From assembly GCA_038093975.1 (NCBI GenBank), contig JBBPTG010000301.1:1-27164 (forward strand): a stretch of 27,164 nt of DNA, in the 5' to 3' direction. A model generated the notes under the pieces. The model worked only from the letters and a program-made list of their open reading frames with translations. It ran no database searches and was not told where the DNA came from. This DNA comes from Chalciporus piperatus. Lineage: Eukaryota > Basidiomycota > Agaricomycetes > Boletales > Boletaceae. Position 1 is the first letter of the stretch. Each line of letters starts with the position of its first letter. The translations under genes and the position numbers were made by a program. Positions 1-27,164 of this stretch are shown in pieces.

Positions 1-1512
1 TTATCTGACCGTAGAACAAAGTGGGCGTCGCGAAAACCCGCCGCGACCACAGCCAGAAGCGCGAGCTCGATCGCGACCATCTCGGCCCAGCCGATGTCGC
101 GGCCGTCGCCCTTCCAGTCTGGAACAAGACGCCAAGCGAGTACGCGGTCGCCAAACACGAAACCAATACCCCAAGACGAGGAAGCGTCAACGAATATTGG
201 GGAAGGGTGATGGAGCGGCCACAGGAAGGAAGGGAAAACTGTTCATGCCACCAGAGGATGTCGTCCAAGACGGCTTTCGGGATACGACGACGGGAGAAGG
301 GGGAAGAGTTCGTGAAGGAGGAGGCGAAGCGGTAGAGAGCCGGAAGGTGTGATCGAGCGCCGACGATAACCACGGCACAATGATTGAGCGTGCCTATCAA
401 AACCTCACAATCATGATGGCAGACAGTGGACTCGCTGGACCAAGAGGCAAGACGCGCCATGTACTTCAGGCGCTTACCGTCGGGCAGAGAGACGCGCTTG
501 AGATCGAGGTCCCAGAGGAAACCGAGATAAGGAAAACACGGGGCGAAGTCGATGAACTTCTTGGCTGCCCAGGGCCAGCCAAGATCTTCAGCGACCTGCC
601 AGATGAGCGAGGCGTCATAAGGGAACTGTGAGGACACAGACCAGGCAGTCGAAGAGGGTCAGAGGACACGTGAGGAAAGGAAGGGCGAGAAAAACCAACC
701 ACAGGTAGACCATCAACAAAGCGAGTAGGGTAGCGCAGAAAAACGAAGTCGTCGGCCCAATTGATGAGATCCTGGATGGATTTGAAGCGGTAAATGCACA
801 CGATACCATCCGCGCAATGACCAAAAATGCCGGAGGAGCTGCAGCATCCGAAACAGCAACAGTGGTCGATGTAAATCTTACCGTCCCACAGAATGCACAC
901 ATGCAAACGGTCGGCGGGAGCCACCGGCATGCGACGATGGGCAGCGTCGACATCAAAAACGGCGGCTTGAGCGCCAGCGGGCGCCCGAGCGACGAGGAGG
1001 AAGCAGTCAGAGAATGAACCCCAATCGCAGTGGAAAGAAGATGAATCGATCTCGGAGTTGATAGAATGAATGAGAGGATGATCACGAGGGAAAGAGTGGT
1101 CCTGAATCAGGCGGGGCTTGCCGGTAAGAGAGTGAAAAACGACGCCGAGAGGGGAAGTGCGAAAGGGACCGAATAAGGATTCGAATGAGGCCGGATCGAA
1201 AGGAGAAGAGTAGCGACCGGCTTCGAGTTCCTTCTCGATCTGGGCAGAAATAAAGGCTGAATTATCTATGGCAGACTTGTGATTGGGAGGCGTAAAGGAG
1301 GAAGAAATGACAGAGGAGACTCCAAGGGGAAAACCGAAACGAAGACCGTCGGGGATGTCAGAAAAACGTGACCAAACCGTGTCCCCACAGGCACGGAGCA
1401 TCTCTTCCCATTTATCCGGGATGAGAGGGGTCACGATCGGGAACACATCAGCCGGAAGGGTGCGACTGGGCGTTGTGATCGCCCGCACCGCACACGGAGC
1501 AGAGGTGAGCAT
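1..1512 (-). CDS. reverse transcriptase-RNase H polyprotein (pol), partial
   Basis: The RT frame is open upstream to 2043 and has an internal ATG at 1512 that overlaps the gag C-terminus. RT motif A (FDVDAAHRRMP) lies near 927-958 and motif C reads WADDF near 743-762, keeping the two catalytic aspartates in a divergent context. A 74-nt GT..AG intron at 699-626 joins the fingers/palm region to FPYDASLIW and GFLWDLDLKR, a join that fits related elements. Downstream, near 205, the frame slips by one base in a C-rich run. The next frame gives an RNase H-like start (FVDASSSWGIGF, then WAEMVAIELAL and LRSD) that runs off position 1. The polymerase and RNase H calls come from motifs; whether this copy is active is unknown. 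Confidence 0.65.
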
Positions 1513-3497
1513 GCTTGCACTCGACTGAGGAGGAGGCGCAGCCGCGAAGGCCGTTCCAGCTGTAGCAGTAAGAGCGGCCTTGGGTGTCGAGCCAGACACC
1601 CTTGGGGCTACGAGAGACCCAGCCGTTGGACGAGGCTGGGCACTCCTTGGTAAGGTGGGCACCAAGGCAGACGAAGCACTTCCCGTGCCTGTCGGCGGAG
1701 TAGGGGAAGGAAGGGCGTGGTGCTGCACGAAATCCGCTCGAAGAGGCTGAGGGGGCAGAGGAGGAGGAGCGCAGGGACGAGCTGCTTGAGACGCTTGGAA
1801 GGCTGGTCGAGCCGCTGAGGCTGGATGATGCGCCGCCAGAGGTGTAGGAGTTCCGAAAGGAACTGCGCGATTCGCGCGACTCGAGAAGTAGAAGGCGAGC
1901 CTCGAGGGAAGAATCCTTCTTCTCCTTGAGCTGCGAAGCGCAGAAGTTCCAGAGTTCCATATGGAAGTCGCCAGGGTTGAACACACCGGAATTCTGATGG
2001 TACATCTTGCGTAACTGGATGCAGTAGGTGCGCCAGATGTCAAATTTGCTGGTGAAGTTGTGCGAGGAAGTTACGAGCGCAAAGTGCTTATGGAACGCGT
2101 CCGCGATGGCCCCAGCATTAGGATTTGGCAGGTGAGCACGGATCAGGCGGGGGAAGATCGCCGCTGCCTCACGATACGCGTCCGTGGACATAAGAAACTC
2201 ATCCTCTTCCTTCACCGCTCGCGGCTCGCTAGTGAAGTGCAGGAGAGCGCGAGAGGAGGCGGTAGCGAGGCAATGAATGGGAATATGTGATGTCCACCCC
2301 TCCCGAAGCAGCCTCACGACATGGGGATGATCGATGAGGTCGTCGGGCGAGATGAGGCGAGAGAACCCAGAAGAAGGAGGGGCAGAGAGGGGAGGTGCCC
2401 GCGAGCGCGAAACGAGACCCAACAGTTGGGCAGGGTCCGAAATAAAGTCACGAGGAGAGGATACTAGAAGATAAGAGAAGTAAGCACAAGTAGGGCGTGC
2501 AGGAAAGTGCCAAGAAGCGGCAGGGAGGAGAGGCATATGGCAGATGCTCACAAGAAGGTAAGAACCCTGAAGGAGAGGGTGGTAAAAGCCCAGAGGCGAG
2601 CCCAGGCAGGCCAAGGAGGGATAAGACAGCGGACTGAAGATCCTCGCGCGAAATAGCACGAGGAGAGGAAGATGCAAGGGGGGAGGAGAATGAGGCATTA
2701 AGAGGAGCAGAGGCCCCAGGAGTCGAAGGTGCAAATAAAGTATGCGAAACTGACTGCGATCCGGGAGTCGCAGGAGTATATGCAGTGTTGAACGAGGATG
2801 GAACACCCGGAGTTGTTGGAGCGAATAGCGTGCTCATCGAGGAAGATGAACCAGGAGTTGCAGGTGCAACCGTGATGGTGGGGGGTGAGAACGCCCGTGC
2901 TTTACCTTTGTCGGCGGCGGTTGACTTCTTGGGAGAGCCCGCCGTCTTCCTTGGCGAAGCGGCTGGCGGTGCGGGAGAGATCTGCGAGTTGACTAACGTA
3001 GCAGAGGAAGTTGAAGAGGCGAGGAGGCTTGCAGCGGCGGCGAGCTTCTGGTCGGCAAGCTTCTGGTCGGCAAGCTTCTGGTCGGTGAGTCTCTGGTCGG
3101 CGAGTTTCTGTTCGGCGAGTTTCTGGTCGGCGAGTTTCTGGTTGACCTTGGCCACAGAGCGAGTTTCGCGGCTCCCGTTTGGGGAAACAGGAGCGGAGGC
3201 CTGGCGAGACCGCTTTGCGGGGGGAGGAACGGTCGGAGCCACAGAAGAGCCACCAACTACAGGAGGTGAGGGCTGTCTAACACGGCGAGAGCCTACCTGG
3301 GGAGACTGGAGAAGAGAGCTCCCAGACTCCAACAGAAGCGCTTCCATGTTAGAAGAATCAAAAACTTCGCCGGTGATGTCGTCGTCAAGAACACCGAATT
3401 CGGCGTCGTCGAAATTGGGGGTCAACCTCGCGCCCGCCGGGGCGGGAGCGCGATTAGGACGATGTGGGGGAGTGCGGGCGATGGAGGAAGAAGGCAT
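1448..3497 (-). CDS. gag-like protein of the retroelement, with Cys/His clusters
   Basis: The start ATG is at 3497. The N-terminal half is rich in Ser, Pro and Ala and carries seven tandem KLADQ-type repeats. The reading frame would stop at 2448, but a GTGAGC..CTTCTAG intron at 2551-2464 (88 nt) joins it, phase 1, to the next open frame, which runs to a stop at 1448. That second part has a helical gag-like stretch (motifs such as FDIWRTYCIQLRKMY), a serine-rich linker, then a C-x2-C-x3-H-x4-C cluster followed by a second Cys/His cluster ending CSVCGAGDHNAQSH. These probably bind nucleic acid. The stop falls just before the RT domain, which continues in the +1 frame. The intron is inferred from frame and splice-site agreement only. 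Confidence 0.6.
3042..3146 (-). repeat. 15-bp tandem repeat, seven copies, encoding KLADQ-type pentapeptides
   Basis: Seven contiguous 15-bp units occur, with plus-strand consensus gagtttctggtcggc. On the minus strand, inside the gag-like frame, they encode pentapeptides such as KLADQ, KLAEQ and RLTDQ. The unit length is a multiple of three, so copy-number change keeps the frame. The charged heptad-like pattern could extend a coiled coil. Confidence 0.9.
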
Positions 3498-3784
3498 GGA
3501 AATGGCGGGATGAGAAAAACGCGAGATAGAGCGTGGAGTATGGAGAGTATGATAGAGAGATAGTGGAGAAGGTGAATCAACAGAGATCTAGATATATGGG
3601 AATCGGAGTGATCCGAAGCCCGACATTTGCACGAGTCTCGGCTCTGTCCGAGCTCGTGCCTCGCCCTCAGAGCCTCATGCTTACGCAATCTGGACTGCAT
3701 TCCGCAAATGCCAAGGTCAGCCGGAGGCACAATAAGAGCAAGACCACATCAATACTAAATAGTAGTAGTACCCTCCAACTCACA

Positions 3785-11435: not shown

Positions 11436-11694
11436 GTCGTGTAGTTGTGTATGTACATTTTTATTTGCATTGCCCCAGCTAAAGAGCAAAAGTGCGAGAT
11501 GTTTACCTACAGTGCGTACAGGGAGATGATGTATATGTACCATACAAACACCGGGAGGTGGTATCACAAAATGTCAAACGAAACATCGAGCGAAGAGTCA
11601 AGGAAACAACATATCACGGAAATCACAGAAACGATGAACATGGAACATGGATATGGATATGAAAACATACATCAACATCAATTCATCCCCAAAA

Positions 11695-13526
11695 TTACTC
11701 TGACGAATTCCACAGTTTCCGAGGGAGAAAAACGGAAGCGCTGATACCGATGCCCGCGAGGAGTAGTAAGTAATAGTAGGCGTACCACGCGTGTTCAGGG
11801 GTTTTAATGGAAATCGAGAACATGGATGTGGCGGAAGCGGGTCCGATGGCTCGCATGATCGAGACCAACAGCTGAGCGATTCCGTTGGTCGCTCCGAGCG
11901 AAGCGCGGTTGGGAGATGCCGCTGCGATGTAGATGAAGACACATGCTGTGATGGAAATCGTTTAGAAACGCTTGACTCGCGGTGAACGCGAAACCGTTGC
12001 TCACAGTATGCCAAATTCAAAATCATAGAGAGCGCGAGTTGCACTCCCACCATGGACCATACCATCGAACTCAGTCCCTGCGCTCTTGCCAGAGCATTGA
12101 TCAGGGGAAAGGTAAAAACAAGGGGGACACATGAAGCCATAGAAGCCGAGTAAATAACCTTGGATCCAAACCGATCGTGCAAATCCGCAAAGAAGAAAAT
12201 TTGGAACAATCCATTGACCACTCCATAGACGGAAAGGATATTGCCAATACGTGGTGGGTCGAGGCCAAGTCCACCCAGTTCCACCGGGGTCGCAAAGAAG
12301 AGCGGTTGTACAGCTCGGAACGCGATGTCTAGTAACGAGAGAGTTCCGTAGTTTCCTGCAGCGATGAGTACCTTTGGTATCAGGAGAGCACGCAACGGAA
12401 GGTGCTGGGAATCATCGTCTTTGGGTCGTTCTTCTAGAGTCTCACTGCCGAGAGTCTCACTCGACGAGTCAGGTGTAGCAGGTCTACTTTCCACCACGGA
12501 TTTCTTGCCAAACTTTTCCTTAATCAGTCGACCAAGTGGGACGCGATTAGGGAGAGTCTGTAAATCCCATCAGTATAGGAGAGTGAGCACATGTGAGTCA
12601 ACTCACCTCTTGCAAGAAGAGGTATGTTACGACCCAAGCAAGAGCAGAGAATGTCGCTGGTACAGCAGACGCCAAGAAGTATGGATATTCCTTGAAGAAG
12701 TTCCAATCCCCGAAAACGTTTGGGAACCGATCAACGGGCTTTGATAAGGAACCGCCAACGTAAGGTCTGCATAAACCGGTAAACTCCATCGAACATTCCG
12801 ACAGGCAAGAGGGGGTACTAACCCCAGGGTAGCACCGGACGCCCAAGCGATCGGCATATACGCATACGCCTGTGCGAGATTTGTGGAGTCTGTGATCTCC
12901 ACCATCATACTTTTGATCACACCTATATTTCCATTGAGGGCGCCATTCAGAGCACGACTTATATGAGCGTGGTGATAAGTAACTTCTTTATAAGAACGTG
13001 TGACATAGAAGGATGTGACTCACCTCATCACTAAACCCCAAAAGGTCTTCGATAAACCAAAACAATACATGGAGGCAGACAACCCGAACAAGCCTGTCAA
13101 GATTACAGGTTTTCGGCCGACATGGTCTGAAACTCGACTCCAGTGGAGGACAGTGAGGGCCTGGGTCGCAAAAAACAACGAATGCTGTGGAGATGTGAAA
13201 TGCGTTCAGACCCGAAACATTGCGAGAAAACAGAAATATATACCAGCATTCCAACATAAAATCCAACTTGTGTTTCGTCGCCGTTCGTAATACCGATGTC
13301 TCGTATGAGCTTGGACGCATCGTATGAGAGTGCTGCACTTGGATGCTGGAACGCAACCGCGACGTACCTGTGGAGCAAAGGGAGCGATGACTTGGGACGT
13401 GAGGGGCTCCGCGAGCTGAAGAAACAGAATAATAGAGAATTGACGCCAGGGCATCGGTGTCCTGCCCTTCTTCTGTTGCCGAGCCTGCAACAGCGGCGTC
13501 TCTTCATCTACCGTCTGCGAGGACAT
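11695..13526 (-). CDS. major facilitator superfamily transporter, seven exons
   Basis: Exons read leftwards: 13526-13368, 13309-13244, 13184-13024, 12957-12823, 12766-12607, 12557-12005 and 11945-11695, giving 494 residues. The N-terminus has an acidic di-leucine-like stretch (EETPLL), then APQLIRDIGITNG, a first helix pair, and the MFS motif A region SDHVGRKPVILTGL between helices 2 and 3. SRALNGALNGNIGVIKSM and LAQAYAYMPIAWASG follow. A hydrophilic central loop (Ser/Glu/Asp-rich, around residues 260-300) divides two six-helix halves. The C-terminal half has PRIGNILSVYGVVNGLFQ and ASLGATNGIAQL. It resembles the fungal ZIF-like/YCR023C group of MFS carriers, whose substrates are mostly unknown. 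It probably works as a proton-coupled carrier in the plasma or vacuolar membrane. It ends 259 bp from the convergent F-box gene. Confidence 0.93.
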
Positions 13527-18895: not shown

Positions 18896-21800
18896 TCAGA
18901 AGAAGTTATACCCCCTCCCGAGGGGAACGCTCGTCGCCACCCCAATGTCTGCCAACTTGCCATCCACGTACACGTCAAACGTCTCAGGATCGACAGCCAG
19001 CTTGGGTAGCGAATCGTTCCACTTCATGTGCTTCTTCGTCACCTTTCGGCAGCCGACCACCGGTCTGATACGTTTAGAGAGTTTGTAAGACTCGATCTTG
19101 CCATTGTCGATCGATATCTGCGAGACGAACGCCATGGAGTTGCGTGCTGCCGCTGCAGGGTAGGAGCCCCACATTGGACGACCGTACGCAGGTTGGACGG
19201 TCGATATGGATGCGTTGGCTTCACCGACCTTTGGGCGTTCGCGTTCACGTTCACGTGAGAGTGAGTTGAGAAGTCAGACGCGGTCGCAGTGCTCTATTAC
19301 TCACCTGGGCCCATACGATGACACCTGATTTGAGAACCATCTCAGGTTTGGCACCAAAGTTTTCGGGTTTCCAGAGTACGAGATCGGCGAGCTTGCCTTC
19401 CTCGATCGAGCCAACGTATTTGCTGATACCATGCGTGATCGCCCTGAAGGAACGTTCGATCATCAGATACAGTTTCGTGATCGAACGAGCAAGGCAATGA
19501 GATTAGTACTCACGGGTTGATGGTATATTTGGCAATGTACCGCTTCACGCGGCCGTTATCATATTCCGGTGTATCACAGAGCTCCGTGAGCGGACCCCTC
19601 GCCTCTTTGAGCTTGTCCGCAGTTCGCCAGGTCCTCGATATGACTTCTCCAACACGTCCCATGGCCTGCGAATCAGAGCTGATCATCGAAAGCGCGCCAG
19701 TGTCATGGAGAACATCTTCGGCCGCCACCGTTTCCTTTCGGATGCGGGAGTTTGCAAAAGCGACGTCCTCGGCGATGTTTTTGTCGAGATGGTGACAAGC
19801 AACGAGCATCTGAAGAAGTATGTGATGAATCAGAAAATGAAAATAGGGATGATTCTGAAGGACTCGGGGCGTACGTCGAAATGCTCGTCGATGGTGTTCA
19901 CCGCAAGGGGTCGAGTTGGGTTGGTGGAAGATGGGAGGACGTTCTCGAGTTCACAAACCACGATGATGTCCGGAGCGTGCCCACCGCCTGGTGAAATCCG
20001 AGTTCAAACAGGAACGAAATTGGGAAATACAGATGCGCGCACCGGCTCCTTCTGTGTGGTAGGTATGGATGGTGCGATCACCGAAAGCCTTGATGGTGTC
20101 TAGGAATGGGGTGAGTATCATGAAATATGGAAACGCTGAGAAACGCCGACCATACTTTGTACGAAACCGCTCTCGTTCAGACTGTCGGTATGAATGTTGA
20201 CCTGGACATCATAATCGTCTGCGACGTCGAGACAGTTGATAATTGCTGTCGGTGTAGTGCCCCAATCTTCGTGAAGCTTGAGCCCAGCTGCACCTGCCTT
20301 GACGACGTCTTCCAGGGCCGGACGTCCAGAATCACTTCCCTTGCCAGTGAAAGCAAAGTTCATAGGGACACCATCCGTAGCAGCCAACATTGTCTCGATA
20401 TAGAACGGGCTGGGCGTACACGTCGTCGCGTTCGTCCCAGCACTGGGACCACCAGTCCCGCCTCCGATCATCGTGGTCGTGCCGACAGCGAGGGCCTCAT
20501 TAATCTGTTGTGGACAAATGTAATGGACGTGCACATCTATGGCTCCAGCCGTGACGATTAATTGCTCTCCAGCGATGACCTCGGTCGACCCGCCGATGAC
20601 CAGTTTGGGGTGAACACCATCCATGATGTCTGGATTTCCGGATTTTCCGATGGCCTCGATGAGGCCTCCTTTGATACCAATGTCCGCCTGCAATGTCATC
20701 AGACACAGAAGTGAGGAATGGAAGCTGCCTTACCTTGTAAATACCGCTCCAGTCCACGATCACAGCATTTGTGATGATGAGGTCGACTGTATCGGCAGAC
20801 TTCCGTCCACAAGCTTGGCCCATACCATCGCGAATTGTCTTTCCTGGGTACTGGATGATGGAATGAAATTATCGTGCCAAAGATGCGACTTACCACCTCC
20901 AAATTTGACTTCGTCGCCATAGAAGCGTTCAGCCTGTACAAGATCAGATGCGGTGCGTGTGATAAAATAAATGACGTAACTTACCGCATCACTGTCGATC
21001 TTGATCCAAAGGTCTGTGTCTCCGAGACGAATACGATCCCCAACTGTCGGTCCAAACTTGGATATATAGTCTGCGCGAGTCAGGGTACACTGATCAATGG
21101 ATAAGGGAGCATCGGGCTGTGGCACATGACCAAATCCTTTGAAGATACTATCGTCGGAAATGCCCGCTGCCAAACTGGATAAAATGGATTCAGTGAGGCC
21201 GTTTCCACCCTTGACGACTTTGCTGCCTGCGACAGGAACGAGAGTTACTTCCGTTTCTGGTTCACCAGGTTCAAATCGCTTGGACGTTCCAGAGGCGATG
21301 TCGAGACGTTTTCCTGCAGCTATGCACCGATCAAACACCAGGCACTCGTTGACGTCGGCGAAAGGATAGTGTGAACCGATCTGGGCAGATCAGCATCTTG
21401 GCGTGGTATTTAGAGATATAGACTTACTTGGATGGCGCGGTCACCCTTGTTACAGACCTTGAGCTTGATTCGTTCTCTACCGGGATTGAGAACGATATCG
21501 CCTCCACCTGGGACTATTTCACCAGGAATCTTGGCGACAATCCGAGGGGTCTTGATCGGTGATGGGAAGGCCTCAGGCGGGGGGGTGGGCAAGAAGGAGC
21601 CGTATAACGCAGCCGCGATGTCGCCATCGTCAGTGCATATCGCATCCTCTACTGTTACTAAGAAGACACTGCGATACGAGATTCCACGATTATATCAGCT
21701 CGAATCAGATCCCCAAACCGAACACGAACCCGTCGGGCAAGGTACCCTCAACTTGGATTTCACGAAGTCTCGGAGCCACACCGTCAAGGACGTGTTTTCG

Positions 21801-23262: not shown

Positions 23263-23937
23263 ATGTCTTCGCGCTCTGTCGTCAGCACTCCTGCACTTTC
23301 TTCAGCCTCCCGTAAGCGCACTTCGTCGTTTTTCGAGCCCTTGCCCCGAAAGACTTCCCGAACGATGCTTCGCCGTACCGAGTCTTTTCTCTTTTTATCT
23401 GACTACAACGACGAGAGCCACTTGGAAGGTACTTCCTTCCTCCACATGACCTCTTCGCCCTCTCGTGCCACCCCCTTCAACCGCGCGCTCCCTCATTATA
23501 AGGAGCAGCGAGCCAAACCCGGTCGGAAGCGTGCCGAGTTCACCATCGCCCCAGTTCAGCCCCGTCTCCCCAAGCGTGGAGCTCGCGTGCCACCCATGCC
23601 TTCATCGCGTCCCGCAGCGCCCCACATTCGCACCACCTCACCCCTCTCTCCGAGGCAGAAATTGCTTCCGCCTCGGGCATCCTTTCCACGCTCCAAGCCC
23701 GAGCCGGATCTTTACCGCTCGGCTCTTAAAGGCCAGATGCGTAGCTCCCCGGAGGGTGAAAAGATGCTCTGCATGGGGCCGCGCCTCGCGATCGCGATAC
23801 TCTCTGCCACTCGCGAGCTGGAACAGATTGTCTCATCATGCGAGGACGATGATGTCACGATGGGTGATGATACTGCCCAGTCTGCGGGATGGGGCTTAGG
23901 GCGCGACACTATGATGGTGTTCCCTTGTGGTGCTTGA
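23263..23937 (+). CDS. uncharacterised 224-residue protein, intronless
   Basis: The start is the first ATG (23263) that begins a typical Ser-rich basidiomycete N-terminus; the frame is open further upstream without another ATG. The protein is basic and disordered over its first 140 residues, with Arg/Ser/Pro-rich stretches (SRKRTSSFFEPLPRK, MLRRTESFLFLSDY). A helical block follows (EPDLYRSALKGQMRSSPEGE, then MLCMGPRLAIAILSATREL), then an acidic run (SCEDDDVTMGDD) and the tail GLGRDTMMVFPCGA. I recall similar small proteins in other mushrooms but no function. No signal peptide or catalytic motif is present. A nuclear role is only a guess from composition. Confidence 0.75.
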   Translation: MSSRSVVSTPALSSASRKRTSSFFEPLPRKTSRTMLRRTESFLFLSDYNDESHLEGTSFLHMTSSPSRATPFNRALPHYKEQRAKPGRKRAEFTIAPVQPRLPKRGARVPPMPSSRPAAPHIRTTSPLSPRQKLLPPRASFPRSKPEPDLYRSALKGQMRSSPEGEKMLCMGPRLAIAILSATRELEQIVSSCEDDDVTMGDDTAQSAGWGLGRDTMMVFPCGA

Positions 23938-25138
23938 GCACTGGATACCCAGCGCAATCGCGAACCCCTCTTTCATGCACACGTTCAACGACGCAAAGCG
24001 ATGGCAATACACAAGTATATTTATACGACGACACGAATGTTGTCTGCACTCGCACTGTATTTCATTTCCCCCACCCCCGGGTAACATTATCTCACATTCT
24101 ACCCCTTCGTGTCTAATATCTCTTTGGTAACTGTCCATAATGAGACTCTCACTCAAAGGTCTACACATAATTTCCTCGAGCTCTTGGTATTTCGTGTCTC
24201 ATATCATTTAACTGATCCCATATCTGTTACTGTACCTCCCTCATGCACATAAAGTACTCCCACATACTCACACAGCCCCCACCACTCCCTCACCCCTTGC
24301 TGCATTTCCGAGCAACGTTTTCATGACACGTCTTTGATCATGTCTCTCACACATAACGTTTTACCCACACGAACTCACCGTGCATCGCGCACCACTTCGC
24401 TCCTTTGATTTCGGAATCTCTTTCTTTTTTTTTTCGTTCCTTCGCATCTGATCGCATCGTCATTTTGACGCATATACCACCGGTTTCAAGTTCTTTCATA
24501 CCAGTTGTACAGTACTAGTCATGCTGTACCCCCTGCGCACCCCATGACGCGTGACGTTTTGGCCCCGTGTCATGTGTCTACTGTTGGTCTACTGCCAGGC
24601 ACTTTGAGCACGAGTCGTGTTGACGCGCTTCGGACGACTTACAGTGGTTTCACGTGTTCAGCTACTCCAGCTTGCCGTACGATCACACAACAGACTTTAT
24701 CTTGATTCTTGGCAGCAAGCCTTGACAGAGCTGTCGATCTGTCAGTAAACCACATGGAACCTGTCAACCACGTCAACCACGTCATGTGTACATGCATTGT
24801 TCGGCACCAAATGCCAGTGTGTTTCCGAGGACCGAAGGAGAGTGTTGCTGTAACTTGATTGCGATAGAAACTGTATCGAATTTCGAAACAGTCGATTCGT
24901 TCTTGTCGTGACTCGTGGCCGACCGCCCGTCGCCCGACACATTCAAAAATTTCGATATACCGAATAAAATCAAGAAAAGGCACAAATGGTACAAGGTTTG
25001 TTCTGAAGTCGATGGTATAGGAAACAAATCAAAAGTAATGATGGCTCGGTCAGGCCGAGGGTGAACAAGCACGGGAGGACGACGCATAAGCGTCACGATA
25101 AAGATACAGAATAAACATAATATTTACAAGGAGTCAAG
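23938..25138. other. 1.2-kb intergenic region
   Basis: This stretch lies between the stop codons of two convergent genes. Its sequence is pyrimidine-rich, with a long T run near 24421-24436 and a short direct repeat of gtcaaccac near 24766-24780. Open frames on both strands, such as minus 24983-24639, have neither family motifs nor coherent splice partners. I see no gene. Confidence 0.6.
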
Positions 25139-25898
25139 TTACCAGTCAGGGGACTAGAAGAATAGGAATAGCATGAGCACGCCAAATTCTACAGCTGAAA
25201 GCGGTCAAGAACGTACGCTGCCGCGCTTCCAGTCAGGAGGCTAAAGAGAGTAACATGAACACACCGAACCAGCTAAAGAGAGCAAGGACGTACGCTACTA
25301 CGCTTCCAGTCGGGGGGCTACGAGAATAGTGTGAACACACCGAGGACAACTGAACGAGAAAATGAACTTACGTATTGGCGCTCTTCAACTTGAACTTCAG
25401 CGCTTCGCTTCCAGTCAGAGGGCTAAGAGAATAGTATGAACACACTGGCACCCGACGCGGCCGAAAGAGAGCCAGGACATACGCTACGCTTCCAGTCTGG
25501 GGGCTACGAAAATAGCGTGAACACGTCGAGGGCAACTGAAGGAGAAAAAGAACATACACTTTGCCGCTCTTCAACTTCAGCGCTTCTCTTCCAGTCAGGG
25601 GGCTAAGAAAATGTATGAGCACACCCGGCACGGCTGAAAGAGAGCAAGAACATACGCTACTACGCTTCCAGTCAGGAGGCTACGAGAATGGCGTGAACAC
25701 GCCGAGGACAACTGAAAGAGAAAAAGAACTTACGCTTTGGCGCTGTTCAACTTCAGCGCGTTGCACTGGGGGATCCTAAAGATCCGAATTAGTCTCATCC
25801 CCTGACGTGCCGATCAGTGAATCGGGGTAACTCACAACAGGGGCGGCGATCACTGCAGCTGCAGCGGCGAGAATAAAGAATAGATGGGAGAACTGCAT
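25139..25898 (-). CDS. secreted Kex2-processed repeat peptide precursor built from micro-exons
   Basis: Nine exons read leftwards: 25898-25836, 25775-25734, 25679-25656, 25602-25558, 25503-25483, 25422-25372, 25317-25294, 25240-25217 and 25153-25139. Together they make 102 residues. Exon 1 is a signal peptide (MQFSHLFFILAAAAAVIAAP). Exons 3-9 each start with the core: PPDW five times, PSDW once and SPDW last. Exons 3-8 continue with Lys-Arg (a Kex2 site), then a short SS/S/GS tail or a long SAEVEERQS-type tail; the chain ends at SPDW. Cutting after KR would release peptides such as SSPPDW, SPSDW, SAEVEERQSPPDW and GSSPDW, all ending in DW. There is no Cys and no CaaX box, so it is not a classical basidiomycete lipopeptide pheromone. 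It could be a signalling peptide or RiPP precursor; no UstY-like modifying enzyme is seen nearby. Introns are 53-63 nt, all GT..AG and phase 0. Confidence 0.87.
25153..25775 (-). repeat. exon-plus-intron tandem array with an approximately 180-bp dimeric unit
   Basis: The exons alternate long (AEVE-type) and short, and the introns following them alternate between two related types: one beginning GTAAGTTC/GTATGTTC with ..TTGTCCTCGG..TTCGTAG, the other beginning GTATGTTC/GTACGTCC and ending ..TTCTTAG. A long exon, type-A intron, short exon and type-B intron make 173, 180 and 182 bp in the three successive copies (25775-25603, 25602-25423, 25422-25241), followed by one short exon, a B-like intron and the terminal exon. 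Coding and intronic sequence were therefore duplicated together. Confidence 0.85.
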
Positions 25899-25969
25899 CG
25901 TTTAGTCGCGTGTATGAGAGGAGCTCGAAGGGGGCAGTGGGTTGGGGTAGATTGGGAACGAAAAGGTCA

Positions 25970-25979
25970 CCTTTTATGC
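25970..25979 (-). promoter_or_regulatory. TATA-like box of the repeat peptide gene
   Basis: On the minus strand the sequence GCATAAAAGG lies about 72-81 bp before the ATG at 25898, in the expected position for a core promoter. The leader in between is pyrimidine-rich. Confidence 0.55.
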
Positions 25980-27164
25980 AGGGGATACTTTAGACTAGCG
26001 AGTATCAATGGGCCTGTCACACAAACGATCTATACAAAACTGGAGGACGTGCTGACACGGGGTTTTGTGGACTCAGCGGGAGTGAATGGATGGCCAATGT
26101 CAGTCAGCGTTGTCGGATGAGAGAGTACAGTAATGAGAAAGCCCCCGAGAAGGGCACCCGCGCACATCCGATCCACTCAATTACACTTTTTCTTCCTCAC
26201 TCCGTCGCCCGAGTATGTATTCCTCTGCCATCGCGCACGGAGTCCGCCGGGTTGCGAATCCGGGGATCCGTGACGTGCGCACGTATTCCTGAGTTCATCA
26301 CCACCTCAAAAAAAGAGGGTCAGCTGGATACATTCGTGAACGAGATCGAACTAGTACCATTGCCTCCACGTTGGGGATCTTGTGGATTTCTAACCCCTTT
26401 CATGGTTCACCGGTCAGGGAATCATCTCATCTCGAATATAGAGTGTTGATGTATGATGCATGATGCCCGATGCCACATGACCAATCTGTAATCATTATCT
26501 CCTCGACTTCGTCGGGTAGGCGGATGCAACAATCCTCGGTTGACAGTCCACTGGCATGTGCCATCTTGACGTCTGGCAGCCGGTCTCAGCCGGTACAACC
26601 CTGATCTTCTACTTACCGCGGCCGACGTGGTACCCCCAATTTTATTTCGAACATGGATCGTCGGTGGGTGCCCGGTGCGGCCATATTAGCTTTCCCAGCT
26701 TCACCGCCAAGGACGCGGATGGTGACACCGTCATGATCATGGGATGTAGACCACACCCACGATCTTGCTAAACGGGTGCGGATGCAGAATGCCTGCCGCG
26801 GCACTCAACACGGATCTATCAAACTATTATACGAGCATCCAATGAGAGCACGACGCGAACGAAATGAACGATACCGATAAGATCATTCGGCGAAGGGGCA
26901 CCCGCTTAAAGTATATGAACGAGGCCCGCCCCCCGCTCTAAACATGGGTAAGAAGTTAGTCTCGCAACCAGAAAGCGGAAGCATCGGGGTAACCAGACGT
27001 TGTGGATCCCGAGGCCATCCGAGGCGAAGACCAAAAAAGATGGTTACGAGGTGAGGTAAGAGAGGGTAAGAGTACTCAAAGTTCCTAGCAACATGACGTG
27101 GCCAAGTATCATGTGCTCCCAATACTCTGTACATGTAGGGATCGTCCAAGTCTGATCTACGCAC
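25980..27164. other. terminal region without a convincing gene
   Basis: This holds the upstream sequence of the repeat peptide gene and then about 1 kb in which I find no gene. A minus-strand frame from the right edge to a stop at 26883 is open for 93 codons (LGAHDTWPRHVARNF, then LVTIFFGLRLGWP). It has no recognised motif, so it may be an exon of a gene beyond the edge or chance. Confidence 0.45.

Follow-up and report, generated by a model that had tools for sequence, protein, structure and literature searches.

Do the short PPDW-coding stretches on the minus strand of this fungal contig belong to one gene, and if so, what would that gene release, and is it alone in its genome? The window analyzed here is the whole of contig C301 (27,164 bases). 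See Table 1 for the features of the locus.

A predicted nine-exon precursor with Asp-Trp-ended cores

Spliced by prediction, positions 25898 to 25139 of the minus strand form a nine-exon gene model of 102 residues that reads MQFSHLFFILAAAAAVIAAPV/DPPVQRAEVEQRQS/PPDWKRSS/PPDWKRSAEVEERQS/PPDWKRS/PSDWKRSAEVQVEERQY/PPDWKRSS/PPDWKRGS/SPDW-stop, with slashes at exon borders. The exons are 15–63 bp long (n = 9), and the introns are GT...AG introns of 53–63 bp (n = 8). All exon lengths are multiples of three, so each intron of the predicted model is in phase 0. The core exons start with the last four residues of one core (PPDW, PSDW, or SPDW) and end with the start of the next. Seven cores end in DW, and KR directly follows six of them, giving six dibasic Kex2 sites between the seven cores. 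A secreted, 102-residue Kex2-type repeat precursor with seven DW cores, six of them followed by KR, had been proposed in a first-pass annotation, and the splice model bears this out, with secretion judged by eye from the leader. As a control, exon 1 was held fixed, the remainder was dinucleotide-shuffled, and a relaxed intron rule (GTRNGY...YAG, 45–70 bp) was applied; the real sequence gave seven DW, whereas any DW appeared in 0 of 200 shuffles. A weight-matrix splice search returned the identical exon chain, which serves as a consistency check only, because the matrix was trained on introns picked by eye that include the gene's own eight. Judged by its sequence, the PPDW-core locus is a real, well-formed gene.

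Table 1. Predicted features of the PPDW peptide gene and its surroundings (window positions)
Feature	Position	Strand	Basis or remark
ATAAAA, TATA-like, 79 bases upstream of start codon	25972..25977	-	Seen at leader-bearing relatives too
Exon 1: start codon and predicted signal peptide MQFSHLFFILAAAAAVIAAPV	25836..25898	-	Leader exon at 14 genome places; signal peptide by eye
Exon 2: propeptide DPPVQRAEVEQRQS, single arginines before QS	25734..25775	-	Splice model
Exon 3: PPDWKRSS	25656..25679	-	Splice model
Exon 4: PPDWKRSAEVEERQS	25558..25602	-	Splice model
Exon 5: PPDWKRS	25483..25503	-	Splice model
Exon 6: PSDWKRSAEVQVEERQY	25372..25422	-	Splice model
Exon 7: PPDWKRSS	25294..25317	-	Splice model
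Exon 8: PPDWKRGS	25217..25240	-	Splice model
Exon 9: SPDW and stop	25139..25153	-	Splice model
Tandem duplication, period 176 bp, 2.7 copies, 82% matches	25275..25759	-	Tandem Repeats Finder

The 176-bp unit of the tandem duplication comprises two exons and two introns, with a short core (SSPPDW type) alternating with a long core (SAEVEERQSPPDW type). The gene likely grew through duplication of this exon-intron pair. Because all of the exons are symmetric, exon loss, gain, or skipping would keep the frame, and only the number and kind of peptides would change.

A near-identical copy of the gene, encoding the same protein, lies at C89:2264–3023. The two copies differ at 5 of 760 bases, none of them exonic (0/309) and all of them intronic (5/451), a placement with a chance of ~0.07 without constraint that is weak evidence when taken alone. 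The copies sit in a longer overlap, in which window positions 23847–27164 correspond to C89 1–4301 at ~99% identity, and C301 and C89 are probably either neighbors or two haplotypes. C89 is ~0.97 kb longer in this overlap; the extra sequence at C89:954–1920 is absent from the window (at 24796–24801) and represents an indel that sets the two copies apart. Within the window gene, the six KR-flanked six-codon units vary at 5 of 18 positions, with four silent changes and one Pro-to-Ser change. A pooled dN/dS of 0.03 over 15 units is biased low and carries little weight, and we set it aside because the units were collected with a pattern in which D, K, and R codons were obligatory.

Leader-sharing relatives in the genome

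We searched the genome (35.5 Mb in 484 contigs) for the leader exon and found it at 14 places, including eight on C89, two each on C163 and C324, one on C273, and the one in the window; a reversed-pattern control gave 0, and a similarity search returned the same 14 places. The cores behind these leaders diverge, so the gene is not a lone orphan. C163 and C273 have long stretches in common with C89 at 92–99% and are likely, in part, its other haplotype; the 14 places are therefore not a per-nucleus count. Of the 14 places, 10 were inspected for an ATAAAA element, and all 10 have it 74–86 bases ahead of the start codon.

The PDWKR pattern had 25 exact matches in the genome and 3 in the control. 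Eighteen of the 25 fall inside six leader-bearing genes or copies, namely the window gene, its C89 copy, C89:7988, C89:19902, C324:5673, and C324:18912, such that related KR-spaced precursors, whose absence the first-pass annotation would have counted against the gene, do occur in this genome. The other seven matches were considered as further DW genes and rejected, as they are scattered singles whose in-frame readings look unrelated. The ADWKR pattern had 13 matches, each on a different contig, against 8 in the control, and thus revealed no AADW-type repeat gene in this genome.

The cores of the relatives take several forms. C324:5673 ends in APSW, and both C89:31924 and C163:39639 carry DYIAGHADFIGDHEGH-[SP]KR repeats. 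Of these last two (C89:31924–31118 and C163:39639–38947), one has five full repeat copies and the other has three, within surroundings that are ~98.7% identical, and the repeat number may differ between haplotypes. Others among the leader-bearing relatives are short or eroded. Among the PDWKR carriers, C89:7988 is decaying, with one W lost (PPDRKR), the final DW lost, and an SPT end. C89:19902, which we read by hand from the sequence in place of an automatic splice model of 156 aa, has lost the W of its last unit and has the end PTDRK. Because some relatives are decaying, selection across the leader family is not uniform, as read from these sequences. A comparison of the window gene with C89:7988 gave 18/174 exonic and 33/221 intronic differences, with the exonic ones at 5, 3, and 10 by codon position, which suggests constraint only mildly.

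Could the window gene itself be a remnant that has lost its function or expression as the repeat cluster around it decays? Several neighbors are degenerate, and the peptide gene cluster is repeat-rich and rearranged. However, both the window copy and the one on C89 are intact and encode an identical protein, and we regard a remnant as very unlikely. A further reading, which we rate as less likely than not, is a cassette system, in which one conserved promoter and leader exon would drive arrays of symmetric phase-0 mini-exons that are duplicated, swapped, lost, or skipped in frame. The cluster could then rapidly yield new sets of Kex2-released peptides (PPDW, APSW-ended, and DYIAGHADFIGDHEGH) with which mycelia or partners would recognize one another.

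Conservation of the leader and promoter with changing cores among the 14 leader-bearing places would also suit defense or host-directed peptides, in which case the targets of the DW peptides would be rival microbes, animals, or a plant partner, and an arms race would diversify the cluster. Vogt et al. favor a role towards the biotic environment (PMC9769878). However, the DWKR end is kept in the PPDW genes, where change is mostly silent, and synthetic peptides from KEX2-processed repeat proteins (KEPs), a set that did not include PPDW peptides, were without antibacterial activity in published tests (PMC9769878). We consider a defensive or host-directed role unlikely, and less so the cassette system for recognition. 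On the margin of this cluster, C89:64379–68291 (minus strand) carries frames with NACHT/NPHP3_N and WD40 repeats, as in an NLR-like gene.

Predicted products and known KEPs

Our preferred reading, to which we give a probability of roughly 0.6, is that the gene encodes a secreted KEP, likely cut by Kex2 and trimmed by Kex1 to short, linear, Asp-Trp-ended peptides that are likely extracellular signals. We infer expression, splicing, secretion, and cleavage of the precursor alike. Signal peptidase would take off the leader, Kex2 would cleave after Lys-Arg, Kex1 would strip the Lys-Arg, and peptides with a free Asp-Trp end would be secreted. The genome holds a kexin-type gene, with a P_proprotein match on C2 and an adjoining frame that matches the solved kexin 1ot5 (E 1.2e-76), as well as a DPP-IV_N match on C65 (DPP-IV/STE13-type gene).

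Two classes of product would be expected: a short class with members such as SSPPDW, SPSDW, and GSSPDW and a long class exemplified by SAEVEERQSPPDW. The product list given at first omits the first core, which is preceded by single arginines (DPPVQR/AEVEQR/QSPPDW), not by Lys-Arg. All three long cores carry Arg-Gln before their end (EQRQS, EERQS, and EERQY), so an extra cut after the single Arg could give QSPPDW and QYPPDW, whose N-terminal Gln might then cyclize to pyroglutamate, a change reported in other KEP peptides from mushrooms. The Arg-Gln is kept in C89:7988, the second unit of C89:19902, and C324:18912, and it is missing in the first unit of C89:19902 (EALYS) and in C324:5673 (EQRWT). 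Vogt et al. describe many pyroglutamyl peptides as well as products apparently cut after a single arginine (PMC9769878).

The gene had looked undescribed in kind, a view that does not survive comparison with the literature. KEPs are a described class that has been surveyed fungus-wide (PMC6339444 and PMC7329392). Linear DW-ending KEP peptides have been detected, with SGTGEASAADW in Lentinula edodes and SGVAADW forms in Pleurotus having the AADW end in common (PMC9769878). The precursors of these peptides, L. edodes KEP 2599 and Pleurotus KEPs 1091723 and 1439342, resemble the window gene in having a signal peptide (here by eye), KR-spaced short cores, and a free Asp-Trp end (PMC9769878). However, their cores are AADW rather than PPDW, and the Pleurotus precursors have repeated STE13 dipeptides that the window gene is without. 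Coprinopsis cinerea KEP 490115 (QYKAPSW and QMRPPSW; PMC9769878) has Trp-ended cores whose Gln start leads to pyroglutamate, and the relative at C324:5673 likewise ends in APSW; unlike the window gene, KEP 490115 has RR sites and STE13 dipeptides. Expansion of KEPs within one genus is also on record, with type S-1 in Peniophora accounting for 37 KEPs in two strains (PMC7329392).

A query made of a published peptide of this kind plus KR retrieved at least four proteins of this design among 7992 candidates scored: P0121 (Lentinula edodes), P0124 (Lentinula aff. lateritia), P0122, and P0123. Core types among these relatives include AADW, GADW, GAEW, and GAQW. In P0121 (...SER/SGT) and P0124, as in the window gene, a single Arg precedes the first core. 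P0123 (JGI/ENA metagenome source) has a leader followed by AASW-KR, GADW-KR, GAEW-KR, and GAQW-KR, with W before KR and a changing neighbor, as in the window family; its cores are longer, however, and its pair E-value against the window protein is only 1e-5. Used as a database query, the 102-aa protein itself returned nothing at E <= 1 among 46 candidates; a urease control confirmed that the searched database does contain Agaricomycete proteins. Single-pair BLASTP of the window protein against the retrieved KEPs gave E values of 1e-7 and 1e-5, and because these are driven by the repetitive sequences, common descent with the Lentinula KEPs is not established. The P0123 protein as query had no match in this genome, which carries little weight since short exons escape such a search, and Pfam and PDB searches with the precursor gave nothing credible. 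The annotated P0121 protein leaves the repeat mid-core after the fourth SGTNEG and continues into unrelated sequence, as if the model had read into an intron, which hints that the L. edodes gene has mini-exons as well.

The proposed macrocyclization substrate fared poorly. A dikaritin-type RiPP would have its core Tyr or Trp crosslinked by UstYa-family oxidases encoded at another locus, as for ustiloxin, and like UstA and the other dikaritin precursors, the window gene encodes a Kex2-spaced repeat precursor. There are five UstYa matches in the genome, and a Tyr adjoins PPDW in one core. However, these matches are on C42, C78, and C71, and none is on C301, C89, C163, C273, or C324 (in an exon-by-exon search that a split gene could escape). 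UstYa neighbors are rare at basidiomycete KEPs (103/1680; PMC7329392), and the DW-ending KEP peptides known from mushrooms were found in linear form (PMC9769878). We judge crosslinking to be distinctly unlikely.

Even less probable, in our view, is an alpha-factor-like mating pheromone for a G-protein-coupled receptor. The alpha-factor-like design first noted for the precursor is evident in the gene model, which, like the yeast precursor, has a leader and KR-spaced peptide copies, and the related Pleurotus DW KEP 1091723 is placed among alpha-pheromone-like basidiomycete KEPs (PMC7329392 and PMC9769878). The peptide is a different one, however, and the window gene is, by prediction, split into mini-exons. 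It is also without the repeated STE13 spacer of alpha-factor: the residues after the six KR are SS, SA, SP, SA, SS, and GS, so that a single XA/XP dipeptide follows three of the six and is never repeated. The 102-aa model ends in SPDW and has neither a cysteine nor a CaaX box, in agreement with the earlier view that it is no CaaX mating pheromone. Furthermore, all 30 of the STE3 matches are on C92, C236, C480, and C32, away from the peptide-gene contigs (the search covered STE3-type receptors). On C92, several STE3-type receptor genes stand within ~24 kb of one another and probably make up the mating locus of pheromone receptors.

Mushrooms commonly have KEP peptides, and a role is known for almost none of them. 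Signaling is unproven for the class because six KEP knockouts in C. cinerea had no phenotype (PMC9769878). The predicted peptides have their Asp-Trp end in common with those detected in shiitake and oyster mushroom, which opens the idea of one receptor or processing rule for all of them to direct testing. To the known KEPs, this locus adds a PPDW core, a layout that gives each core end a very small symmetric exon to itself, and a cluster that keeps its leader and changes its cores. Three things look new: the PPDW core, the phase-0 mini-exons with their duplication in 176-bp units of two exons, and the clustered family with conserved leaders and variable cores. The main interest lies in this leader-conserved, core-variable cluster of symmetric mini-exons rather than in PPDW as such. 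We found no paper on a PPDW peptide among titles and the beginnings of abstracts, and supplementary tables, such as that of Umemura's 7878 KEPs, may contain PPDW. The mini-exon layout of KEP genes was likewise not found in searches of article text. In the accessible text, "exon" and "intron" are absent from PMC7329392, "exon," "splic," and "intron" are absent from PMC6339444, and PMC9769878 is without "exon" and has "intron" once, in its methods. A literature search combining mini-exons and Kex2 gave no fungal peptide paper among the matches listed. Gene finders can easily overlook or misread mini-exon genes, and for this reason, such peptides may be more numerous and more varied than is now apparent.

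Other features of the window

Long overlapping frames at 466–3587 (minus strand) have a retroelement-like reading and include a CFVCLGAHLTKEC stretch that we take to be zinc-knuckle-like; two frames tested from this region had no Pfam match. A frame at 11598–12569 (minus strand) matches the Major Facilitator Superfamily with 27.2 bits, below the cut-off of 33.4. A urease gene lies in pieces at 18896–21389 (minus strand) and is closest to Agaricomycete ureases, with a top identity of 64% to Flammula alnicola (best 120 of 8000 scored). Antisense to it, at 20495–20832 (plus strand), is an Rfam 5_ureB_sRNA match of 50.6 bits, which probably stems from conserved coding sequence and not from a small RNA.
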